From contig NZ_BNBI01000013.1 of NCBI RefSeq assembly GCF_014655295.1, forward strand, positions 62,001 to 126,000: a stretch of DNA of 64,000 bases, written 5' to 3'. This document shows positions 7,976-10,503 of the stretch, one piece after another. The first letter of the stretch is position 1. Each line of letters starts with the position of its first letter. The stretch is from Streptomyces fumanus (lineage in GTDB: Bacteria; Actinomycetota; Actinomycetes; Streptomycetales; Streptomycetaceae). The notes under the pieces were generated by a model. The model was not told the origin of the DNA, searched no databases, and worked only from the letters and a program-made list of their open reading frames with translations. Position numbers and translations under genes: made by a program.

Positions 7976-9085
7976 CTAGCCGAGGCCCGGCGGTGGCCGC
8001 CACAGGCCCCGGGCGGCGAGCCTGGGCAGGACGCCCTCGCCGAACCAGTACGCCTCCTCCAGGTGCGGGTAGCCGGAGAGCACGAACTCGTCGATGCCCA
8101 GGGCGTGGTACTCCGCGATCCGGTCGGCGACCTCGTCGTGGCCGCCGACCAGGGCGGTGCCGGCGCCGCCGCGCACCAGGCCGATGCCGGCCCACAGGTT
8201 GGGGTGGATCTCCAGGCCGTCCCGGCCTCCGCCGTGCAGGGCGAGCATCCGCCGCTGCCCCTCCGACTCGCTGCGGGCGAGCCCGGCCTGCACGGACCGC
8301 ACGGTCTCCGGGTCGAAGCCGGCCAGCAGCCGGTCGGCCTCGGCCCAGGCCGCGCCGGCGGTGTCGCGGGTGATGACGTGCAGCCGGATGCCGAAGCGCG
8401 GGGTGCGGCCCTCCCGCGCGGCCAGGGCCCGTACCCGGGCGATCTTCTCGGCGACCTGCGCGGGCGGTTCGCCCCAGGTGAGGTACACGTCGGCGTGCCG
8501 GGCGGCGACCTCAACGGCGGCGGGCGAGGACCCGCCGAAGTACACCTCCGGCACCGGGTCGGGCGGCCTGGTCAGCTCCGCGCCCTCGACCCGGAGGTGC
8601 TCGCCGTGCAGGTCGACGGTCTTGCCCTCCCACAACTGCCGTACGACGGTGAGGAATTCGCCGGTACGGCGGTAGCGGGCGTCCTTGTCGAGGAAGTCGC
8701 CGTAGGCCCGCTGCTCCCGGCTCTCGCCGCCCGTGACGACGTTGAGCAGCAGCCGGCCGCCGCTGTGCCGCTGGAAGGTGGCGGCCATCTGCGCGGCGAG
8801 GGTGGGTGAGACGAAGCCGGGCCGGAAGGCGACGAGGAACTTCAGCCGCTCGGTGTGCTGGCTGACCATCGCGGTGGTCAGCCAGGCGTCCTCGCACCAC
8901 GCCCCGGTGGGGGTGAGCGCGCCCGTGAAGCCCAGGCTCTCGGCGGCGCGGGCGATCTGGCCGAGGTAGGCCACGGTCGGCGGCCGGTCCCGCCCGGAGG
9001 CGGTGACCGGGCTGCCGTGGCCGCCGCCGACGACATCGCGGCTGTCGCCGTTGGTGGGCAGGAACCAGTGGAAGGTCAGGGCCAC
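7976..9085 (-). CDS. ssuD: FMNH2-dependent alkanesulfonate monooxygenase
   Basis: Cleaves alkanesulfonates to sulfite and aldehyde using FMNH2 and O2, giving sulfur under sulfate limitation. The 369-residue luciferase-like TIM barrel starts FHWFLPTNGDSRDVVGGGHG and shows the SsuD blocks ESLGFTGALTPTGAWCEDAW, LKFLVAFRPGFVSPTLAAQM, LLLNVVTGGESREQRAYGDF and VYFGGSSPAAVEVAARHADVYLTWGEP. It lies 3 bases behind ssuE, its FMN reductase, in one operon headed by a leader peptide. No ssuA/B/C transporter is next to it here, so uptake genes are elsewhere. Confidence 0.92.
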   Translation of the reverse strand: MALTFHWFLPTNGDSRDVVGGGHGSPVTASGRDRPPTVAYLGQIARAAESLGFTGALTPTGAWCEDAWLTTAMVSQHTERLKFLVAFRPGFVSPTLAAQMAATFQRHSGGRLLLNVVTGGESREQRAYGDFLDKDARYRRTGEFLTVVRQLWEGKTVDLHGEHLRVEGAELTRPPDPVPEVYFGGSSPAAVEVAARHADVYLTWGEPPAQVAEKIARVRALAAREGRTPRFGIRLHVITRDTAGAAWAEADRLLAGFDPETVRSVQAGLARSESEGQRRMLALHGGGRDGLEIHPNLWAGIGLVRGGAGTALVGGHDEVADRIAEYHALGIDEFVLSGYPHLEEAYWFGEGVLPRLAARGLWRPPPGLG

Positions 9086-9088
9086 CGC

Positions 9089-9646
9089 TCAGCCCGCCGC
9101 CGCCAGCAGCGGCAGTTCGGCGCCGAGCGCCGCCGAGAACCCGTCGACGACCTGGGCGAGGGCCTCGGCGGCGGCCGGGGCGACGGTGACCGTGCCGTCC
9201 TCGCGCACGGTGATGTCCTTGTCGAGGGTGAACCAGCCCTGCACTATGTGCTCGGCGCCCATGGAGTTCAGCACCGGGCGGAGCGCGTAGTCGATGGCGA
9301 GGACATGTGCGGTACTGCCGCCGGTGGCCAGCGGCAGCACGGTCTTGCCGGTGAGCGCGTACTGCGGCAGCAGGTCGAGGAGCGCCTTGAGGACACCGGA
9401 GTAGGACGCCTTGTAGACGGGGGTGGCGACGACCACGCCGTCCGCGCGGGCGAACAGGTCGGTGGCGGCCACGATCGCGGGGTGCCGGAAGTCCGCGCCG
9501 AGCAGCGCCTCGGCGGGGACGGTGCGGATGTCGAGCGGGACCACCTGGTGGCCCTGGGCGGTCAGCCGCTGGTCGAGGTGGCGCAGCAGGCGGTCGGTGC
9601 GGGAGGAGGCGGACGGGCTGCCGGAGACGGACAGGACGGTGGCCAT
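9089..9646 (-). CDS. ssuE: NAD(P)H-dependent FMN reductase
   Basis: A 185-residue flavodoxin-like FMN reductase that supplies reduced FMN to SsuD. The phosphate-binding loop SVSGSPSASSRTDRLL is at the N terminus, and VVATPVYKASYSGVLKALLD and LATGGSTAHVLAIDYALRPV are SsuE hallmarks. It is the first structural gene of the ssuED operon; a leader peptide and hairpin lie 260-345 bases upstream. Symbol confidence rests on the partnership with ssuD. Confidence 0.9.
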   Translation of the reverse strand: MATVLSVSGSPSASSRTDRLLRHLDQRLTAQGHQVVPLDIRTVPAEALLGADFRHPAIVAATDLFARADGVVVATPVYKASYSGVLKALLDLLPQYALTGKTVLPLATGGSTAHVLAIDYALRPVLNSMGAEHIVQGWFTLDKDITVREDGTVTVAPAAAEALAQVVDGFSAALGAELPLLAAAG

Positions 9647-9850
9647 GGGTCCTCATTTCGGGTGGAGCGAGGGCGCGCCGGGGCGGTACGGGTACGGCCG
9701 CGCCGCCCGCCGGACAGGGCGGCGCGCCGCGGCCGGCCCGGACGGGCGGGCGGACGGCGCGGAGCCGCTGACCAGCGGTCGCGGACGACGGTGGCGTGGC
9801 ACGGACCGGGGCGGTGGCACGGCCGGCGGGGCGGGCGCGCGGGGAAGCAC

Positions 9851-9868
9851 GTGCCGCGAGCGCGGCAC
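9851..9868 (-). promoter_or_regulatory. Possible attenuator hairpin between leader peptide and ssuE
   Basis: GTGCCGCG-AG-CGCGGCAC is a perfect 8-bp inverted repeat about 40 bases after the leader-peptide stop and about 200 bases before ssuE. There is no clear U-tract after it, so it may be a Rho- or stability-related element rather than an intrinsic terminator. Confidence 0.5.
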
Positions 9869-9907
9869 GGGAGAGGGCGGCGGACCGGGGAAGCGGTCGA
9901 AGGGCGA

Positions 9908-9991
9908 TCAGGCCGCGGAGCGACAACAGGCGCTGGAGACCCGCGCGAGGTCGACATGGCGTCGCCGCGTGAGGTCCAGTCGTGTCGTCAT
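9908..9991 (-). CDS. Cysteine-type leader peptide of the ssu operon
   Basis: A 27-codon open frame reading MTTRLDLTRRRHVDLARVSS then ACCRSAA. The RRRHVDL(A/C)RVSSACCR pattern is the short leader peptide found upstream of many Streptomyces sulfur-assimilation genes; the adjacent Cys-Cys pair near the end suits sensing of Cys-tRNA. The start codon falls only about 8 bases downstream of the putative -10, so the message is probably leaderless. It is too short for routine gene calling but its sequence and place before ssuE make it convincing. Confidence 0.85.
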   Translation of the reverse strand: MTTRLDLTRRRHVDLARVSSACCRSAA

Positions 9992-9998
9992 GCGATCG

Positions 9999-10028
9999 AT
10001 CGTGACAGCCGCCGTCGACAACCGTCAA
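9999..10028 (-). promoter_or_regulatory. Putative promoter of the ssu leader peptide
   Basis: On the minus strand TTGACG (10023-10028) is followed after 18 bases by CACGAT (9999-10004). Initiation 7 bases on would put the transcript start at or next to the leader ATG at 9991. The -35 is good; the -10 is weak. Confidence 0.5.
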
Positions 10029-10119
10029 GGAGAAGCCGGTCGTTCTCGCATCCCGGACCCGGTTCCCCGAGGGGATGTTCCGCGCGACCACACCCCGTGG
10101 GACACACCCCGCCGGAACA

Positions 10120-10165
10120 CCCCGTAGGCCGGACCGCGCGTCTCCTCGCGGTCCGGCCTACGGGG
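10120..10165 (-). terminator. Very strong hairpin after the 55-aa hypothetical gene
   Basis: A perfect 19-bp inverted repeat (arms begin CCCCGTAGGCCGG and end CCGGCCTACGGGG) with an 8-base loop, 10 bases past the stop of the small minus-strand gene. It also insulates the ssu promoter from upstream reading. Confidence 0.85.
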
Positions 10166-10174
10166 CCACCGGGC

Positions 10175-10342
10175 TCACTCCTCGTCGGACCTCGGCACCA
10201 CGACCAGGAACGCGTCCGAGTTGATGTCCATCACGACGGTCGCCGGCTCACCCGCGGCGCGCCGCTCGGCCGCGTACTCCTCGGCCGGCCACGAACCGCG
10301 CGGCGACCCCGCCGGAAATCGCTCCAACACCTTCGCGCTCAT
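10175..10342 (-). CDS. Small conserved hypothetical protein (55 aa)
   Basis: Encodes MSAKVLERFPAGSPRGSWPA ... ending FLVVVPRSDEE. GGAGGTG lies 8 bases before the ATG, and the gene is followed by a very strong terminator, so it is well delimited. The protein is hydrophilic, with a likely helix (PAEEYAAERRAA) and a strand-rich end (ATVVMDINSDAFLVVVP). No domain recognised. It is transcribed divergently from the SDR gene on the right. Confidence 0.7.
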   Translation of the reverse strand: MSAKVLERFPAGSPRGSWPAEEYAAERRAAGEPATVVMDINSDAFLVVVPRSDEE

Positions 10343-10503
10343 GCGGATGACACCTCCAGGTCGACCTTCGGACCGCGGACCTCGCGTGTAATCCGCATGC
10401 CCCCGTTCGAATCCGGTATGTCCCCCCTGACGGCCGTCCGGTGGAGCCCCGCCCGGCGGGGTGCTCCCATGGAGGGGGGCACCGAGCTGGAGGGCCGAGC
10501 ACC

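Follow-up and report, generated by a model that had tools for sequence, protein, structure and literature searches.

In the window, the whole 64,000-nucleotide stretch of Streptomyces fumanus DNA analysed here, a 27-aa leader peptide ORF (MTTRLDLTRRRHVDLARVSSACCRSAA) lies on the minus strand at 9908-9991, with its ATG at 9991-9989 and its stop codon UGA at 9910-9908. It is separated by an untranslated gap of 261 nt (9647-9907, minus strand) from ssuE (9089-9646, minus strand), encoding an NADPH-dependent FMN reductase (TIGR03567, 230.8 bits with a cut-off of 164). The next gene (7976-9085, minus strand) encodes an ssuD-like FMNH2-dependent alkanesulfonate monooxygenase, the best matches of which, NF001939 (477, cut-off 510) and TIGR03565 (467, cut-off 518), are both below cut-off. 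The leader bears two consecutive cysteine codons, UGU UGU (9923-9928, minus strand), the second of which (9923-9925) is the conserved motif cysteine. Its core (nt 9-60; 9931-9982, minus strand), including rare CGA codons, is near-invariant at the nucleotide level according to column counts over 72 sequences.

A -35 element TTGACG (10023-10028, minus strand) and a -10 element CACGAT (9999-10004, minus strand) were read directly upstream, with a spacer of 18 nt between them and 7 nt from the -10 element to the leader ATG. TTGAC is kept in 64-70 of the 72 loci per base, and in the -10 element the A is kept in 67 and the final T in 66 of the 72. The original prediction placed the ATG about 8 nt from a putative -10 element; the proximity and its geometry hold across loci, while the gap is 7 nt. 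This -35/-10/ATG geometry, kept across the 72 loci, fits a leaderless start. For S. lividans, the accessible text of PMC8079986 gives 4-9 nt (mean 6.3) between the -10 element and the start site, a range including the 7-nt gap, which supports the leaderless leader peptide originally proposed. A consensus scan of 9500-10400 with E. coli-like hexamers returned no promoter and no terminator.

Further upstream lies a small 55-aa ORF beginning with MSAKVLERFPAG (10175-10342, minus strand), for which Pfam and NCBIfam searches at E up to 1 gave no match. Just past this ORF and before the leader promoter, a perfect 19-bp inverted repeat CCCCGTAGGCCGGACCGCG with an 8-nt loop and no U-tract was read by eye at 10120-10165 of the window, and may act as a terminator that insulates the leader transcript.

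The leader matched the NCBIfam entry NF042934 (cis_reg_atten, "putative leader peptide") with 33.9 bits (E 1.6e-8), passing the curated cut-off of 27 and sharing the motif of the entry, which names neither mechanism nor target gene. Members are expected to be short ORFs before sulfur-metabolism operons, and here the leader precedes ssuE, which scores over its cut-off, with the ssuD-like gene next. The M. smegmatis leader models Ms4527A and Ms5788A gave 28.0 and 23.3 bits with the leader, below their cut-off of 45; Pfam gave no match to the leader, and Rfam nothing in the window. The leader is a real, functional-looking member of the known actinobacterial family NF042934.

In total, 80 Streptomyces loci were collected through SsuE, and a leader with the pattern LTRR[RL]HVDLARV[SFC]S was present in 71 of them, showing the predicted 27-aa frame to be more than chance. 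Together with the window these make the set of 72 ssu leaders (L021 was omitted from alignment A1), with ssuE directly next to the leader in 45. No leader was detected at the SsuE loci L023, L041, L043, L059, L078, L082, L089, L090 and L091; the sequence available before ssuE is 33 nt long at L090 and 397 nt at L078. The 32-bp leader core was found with at most three mismatches in 69 of 199 Streptomyces genomes, and its reversed-pattern control in none of the 199.

Codon choice in the leader is also conserved. CGA occupies two leader sites in 71 of the 72 loci, whereas ssuE uses it for just 15 of its 590 arginine codons, and the third positions within nt 9-60 are also near-invariant across the 72 loci. 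The motif cysteine is UGU in 72/72 ssu leaders, and the next codon is split between Arg (39 loci), Cys (32) and Ser (one); the Cys-Cys pair named in the original prediction is not the conserved feature, and one UGU cysteine is invariant instead. At conserved residues, the leader has a modal codon frequency of 0.916 and ssuE one of 0.820. Since 70 of 20,000 random draws of ssuE columns reached the leader value, the synonymous constraint suggested by these sequences is clear but not extreme.

Ten matches to NF042934 over the cut-off, the ssu leader included, were found in the genome of S. fumanus, and an eleventh (L015), below the cut-off, looks real by eye. The genes after the others encode, over cut-off, an SsuA family protein and an OAH/OAS sulfhydrylase, as well as a cysteine dioxygenase (PF05995), a protein with nitrite/sulfite reductase domains, and a ThiS-family protein followed by what looks by eye to be a cysteine synthase; below cut-offs, a sulfurtransferase, a sulfatase and an NtaA/DmoA-like monooxygenase. 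Two further leaders precede transporters (SDF, SBP_bac_5) with unassigned substrate. This mostly sulfur-related company of the paralogues and the NF042934 match support the assignment to a cysteine-type leader.

All 25 sampled Streptomyces genomes, that of the window included, contain 3 to 13 NF042934 matches at E 0.001 or better. From these genomes 99 family leaders were gathered (11 from the genome of S. fumanus, 28 loci from genome sampling and 60 further fetched), with L122 omitted from the counts, as its match is off the assumed offset and the locus presumably cut short. A cysteine lies nine residues past the invariant Asp in 98 of the 99, the exception being L184 with none there. Its codon is TGT in 96 of 98 leaders (74 of 76 distinct peptides), whereas the other cysteines of these leaders are TGC in 85 and TGT in 13 cases (Fisher p 3e-38, uncorrected for relatedness); genes of the window use TGC 117 and TGT 19 times. 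The model that selected the leaders biases residues, not synonymous codons. Bacterial tRNA-Cys generally has the anticodon GCA, with which UGU would be read by wobble. A single cysteine only is carried by 26 of the 98 leaders, and on these sequences the sensor seems to be one UGU codon rather than a polycysteine run; the near-universal UGU at one fixed site makes single-codon sensing cheaply and decisively testable. Around it, R(-4) is kept in 97, H in 96, D in 98, L in 97 and R(+3) in 98 of the 98 leaders, with changing codons (H, 71 CAC and 25 CAT; D, 78 GAC and 20 GAT; L, 54 CTC and 42 CTG). Within the bias of the model, kept residues with changing codons point to selection on the peptide.

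At 29 of the 72 loci, the gene after the leader encodes a product that starts like ...FAYWVPNV..., and 25 of these genes are intact (over 300 aa). The one product tested is SfnG (TIGR04021, 637.6 bits, cut-off 383), and its operon also holds SfnB/DszC-like genes, ssuE and an ssuD-like gene. The Ser-Cys-Cys codons CUCCUGUUGC of the leader (nt 62-71) complement the sfnG ribosome site, GCAACAGGAG. All 10 pairs are possible in 19 of the 29 loci, 9 in 7, 7 in 2 and 5 in 1; the mean is 9.38, whereas other leader windows have a median of 3.81. Folding of the sfnG-first loci predicted SD pairing with the leader at 0.80 on average. Masking the leader as by a ribosome at UGU raised the predicted unpaired sfnG SD from 0.057 to 0.272, the gain exceeding 0.1 in 20 of 25 sfnG loci. 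By prediction, the sfnG-first leader would be a cysteine-relieved translation attenuator.

A second sample of 26 loci, reached via sfnG and possibly overlapping the first, had the leader in 25 and none in one (L227, the second fragment of a split sfnG, was left out); 10 pairs are possible in 8 of these loci, 9 in 3 and 5-8 in 14. Strong leader/SD pairing, as modelled, is a property of one large group and is weaker elsewhere. The native leader-SD duplex averages -16.7 kcal/mol in sfnG loci. In the sfnG clade with the SD CCAGGAG it reaches -13.2 natively versus -15.2 when swapped with ACAGGAG SDs; covariation of this helix across clades is unsupported, native pairs being no better than swapped ones in that clade. 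One locus from another family of the order (L225, genome G025) has an SfnG gene of 82% identity with no leader within 600 nt upstream.

The operon in the window is without sfnG, and ssuE directly follows the leader. Over a tree of 70 ssuE genes, the leader-gene arrangement switched at least five times on supported branches and 15 times on the best tree. Because sfnG remnants persist in several ssuE-first loci, we read the ssuE-first arrangement as probably derived via loss of sfnG; the direction is taken from these remnants, as the tree has no root. The sfnG-first and ssuE-first loci constitute a natural experiment on the fate of an attenuator once its target gene is lost.

Downstream of the leader, the 8-bp perfect hairpin CGTGCCGC-GCTC-GCGGCACG of the original prediction is indeed present (9850-9869, minus strand) and not conserved. 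Any perfect hairpin of at least 7 bp within 160 nt past the stop occurs in 8 of the 45 ssuE-first loci, compared with an average of 4.85 and a maximum of 10 in shuffles, which rules it out as a conserved regulator. Another candidate hairpin, GCGGC(CU)GAUC ... GGUCCGCCGC (9877-9916, minus strand), spans the leader stop. An element GATCCGCCG occurs at variable distance past the leader stop in 36 of the 72 loci versus 0.2 expected from shuffles, and in 21 of the 45 ssuE-first loci, and is able to pair with the last leader codons and the stop (GCGGCCUGAUC). Its counterpart in the window is GGTCCGCCGC, where the helix is one among several predicted folds and folding recovers the hairpin only in part, with pair probabilities of about 0.3 for the 5' arm.

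When this stop-codon helix was named, 75% of cells were paired compared with 29-48% in slid controls, and changes on both sides were seen at 7 of 11 pairs, which 26 of 500 shuffles equalled (71 sequences each); RNAalifold on the raw alignment missed it. Pairs between the arm and the downstream sequence numbered 8.71 versus 7.31 in shuffles over the 72 loci, a modest excess, and for the window the same pairing was reached by 6 of 20 shuffles. At 57 loci, C makes up 50% and T 33% of the tails past the hairpin, and no strong U-tract was seen, as 22 of the 57 have at least four T in 8 nt. The intrinsic U-tract terminator and alternative antiterminator of a classical transcription attenuator were not seen, as the consensus scan gave no terminator hit in 9500-10400 and the stop-codon hairpin of relatives has a C/U tail. 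The relatives also have recurring elements such as CGCCTGAATTC and GAATTCGGCG about 40-150 nt past the leader stop, which were not found in the window.

The explanation that we find reasonably probable is that a cysteine leader peptide of NF042934, translated from a leaderless start, stands at the head of a sulfone/sulfonate operon. Cysteine sensing by the leader is likely: a ribosome would start at the 5' AUG of the leaderless transcript and, with charged Cys-tRNA scarce, pause when UGU occupies the A site. Where the gene order is leader-sfnG-...-ssuE, probably the ancestral one, the codons around UGU would pair with the sfnG SD, and the paused ribosome would disrupt this pairing, leading to translation of sfnG. 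In the lineage of the window, sfnG would have been lost, with ssuE directly next to the leader and the leader-SD pairing gone. The most likely remaining route would be a ribosome paused at UGU that covers the 5' arm of the stop-codon hairpin, with less premature termination (Rho-assisted or intrinsic) before ssuE as the hypothetical consequence. This transcriptional output, resting on modelled folds, is a tentative component and has somewhat less than an even chance. Regulation of ssuE by the leader is what we infer from the sequences. Codon changes in a comparable leader, that of S. coelicolor ilvB, were without effect according to the accessible part of PMC1262725, which counts against the explanation.

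Sequestration of the SD might also control ssuE in the window, as is well supported by prediction for sfnG in relatives. At L051 (2834-3040), ssuE directly after the leader has an sfnG-type ribosome site ACAGGAG with a predicted leader pairing of 1.00, apparently a capture of the old sfnG-type control by ssuE. For the window itself this is quite improbable, as the leader pairs with the ssuE SD at 0.02, the leader-SD duplex is at -7.9 kcal/mol and simulated stalling leaves the unpaired ssuE SD at 0.25 as before; ssuE-first loci average 0.12, with no release upon stalling. The attenuation originally suggested is thus predicted, through SD sequestration, for sfnG in relatives and not for ssuE in the window. 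With this pairing gone, the leader could be a leftover of sfnG control that is translated and no longer regulates ssuE, as the sfnG remnants would suggest. The anti-SD half also decays, Cys at the codon after UGU being found in 10 of 43 loci without sfnG versus 22 of 29 with sfnG or a remnant, but this association is not significant on independent pairs. Despite at least five changes of arrangement, leader nt 9-60 are as conserved in ssuE-first loci (identity 0.948) as in sfnG-first loci (0.941), and likewise the third positions, whose identity in ssuE-first loci is 0.871 in the leader versus 0.758 in ssuE. Equal conservation after the loss of sfnG speaks for continued function and makes a leftover unlikely; the leader, since it appears to be still under purifying selection in ssuE-first genomes, presumably still acts.

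The position of the last ribosome could instead set Rho-dependent termination in the C-rich stretch past the leader, with the hairpin irrelevant. The first 50 nt past the leader stop average 50% C, 20% G and 8% A (72 loci), and Rho is suggested for mycobacterial cys leaders in the accessible text of PMC1262725. A ribosome paused upstream, however, leaves the C-rich stretch exposed, which makes the sign of regulation not obvious, and the conserved element within that stretch can pair with the stop-codon region; we do not count this among the probable readings. Nucleotide-level freezing over 52 bp would also suit a repressor operator in which the ORF is incidental. This is highly improbable, given that amino acids stay constant with varying codons across paralogues, that the motif cysteine falls within the reading frame and has a stop after it, and that transcription presumably starts upstream of the core.

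Returning to the cysteine leader peptide of NF042934, SD hiding is unsupported as a family-wide mechanism. Among 36 paralogue loci (the ssu leader L005, L122, and L100 and L113 without a callable start were left out), leader pairing with the SD exceeds 0.5 in only 12, with a mean of 0.328 versus 0.246 with shuffled leader ends. Only the cysteine dioxygenase class and some members of the NtaA/DmoA-like class pair strongly, and SD pairing was likewise rejected as the cause of the universal UGU. A rather doubtful possibility is that the family is a cysteine-sensing arrest peptide, not a codon counter, with operon-specific outputs. If true, R-x-H-[VIM]-D-L-x-R in the exit tunnel would make a single wobble-read UGU a sensitive pause site, with Asp exactly nine residues before it, and the outputs would be SD hiding for sfnG and cysteine dioxygenase and the stop-codon hairpin in ssuE-first operons such as that of the window. 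The leader end at L003 (G000:C8:31740-34796), a family leader before cysteine dioxygenase (PF05995), pairs with the ribosome site of that gene at 0.99; induction upon cysteine shortage would be of the wrong sign for a cysteine-degrading enzyme.

The family is already known, NCBIfam having the named entry NF042934, and earlier work on cysteine-responsive leaders exists for mycobacteria. The literature searched contained no description of an NF042934-type leader before Streptomyces ssu or sfn operons. Canestrari 2020 is said to have found that the polycysteine leaders of M. smegmatis attenuate translation by masking the ribosome site of the gene downstream. The accessible text of three papers (PMC9031893, PMC9094748, PMC13236596) credits translation attenuation in M. 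smegmatis to that work, and Shell 2015 (PMC4633059), in the corresponding text, proposed an attenuator role for the cysteine-rich uORFs of mycobacteria. As far as these partial texts go, the M. smegmatis ORFs, which are leaderless as the promoter geometry predicts for the window leader, resemble it in preceding sulfur genes and in having cysteine near the peptide end. Their SD hiding resembles the sfnG-first relatives (0.80 predicted), whereas the window is without such pairing (0.02), and the mycobacterial type has a run of cysteine codons, whereas the window leader has two, one of them invariant in 72 loci. The eight S. lividans leader peptides named by amino acid in the accessible text of PMC8079986 include none of cysteine type. 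The cys leaders predicted by Seliverstov 2005 (PMC1262725) come from Mycobacterium, Propionibacterium acnes and Bifidobacterium longum; in the part of that text available, they share cysteine codons near the stop and the lack of a clear terminator with the present leader, and differ in that no Streptomyces ssu is among those reported. In Rhodobacterales, uORFC-8-2 upstream of cysS is, in the accessible part of PMC8632094, likewise a cysteine-codon leader, equipped with an attenuator; it belongs to another phylum, and its tandem cysteines are mostly UGC, with a consensus ending in a U run.
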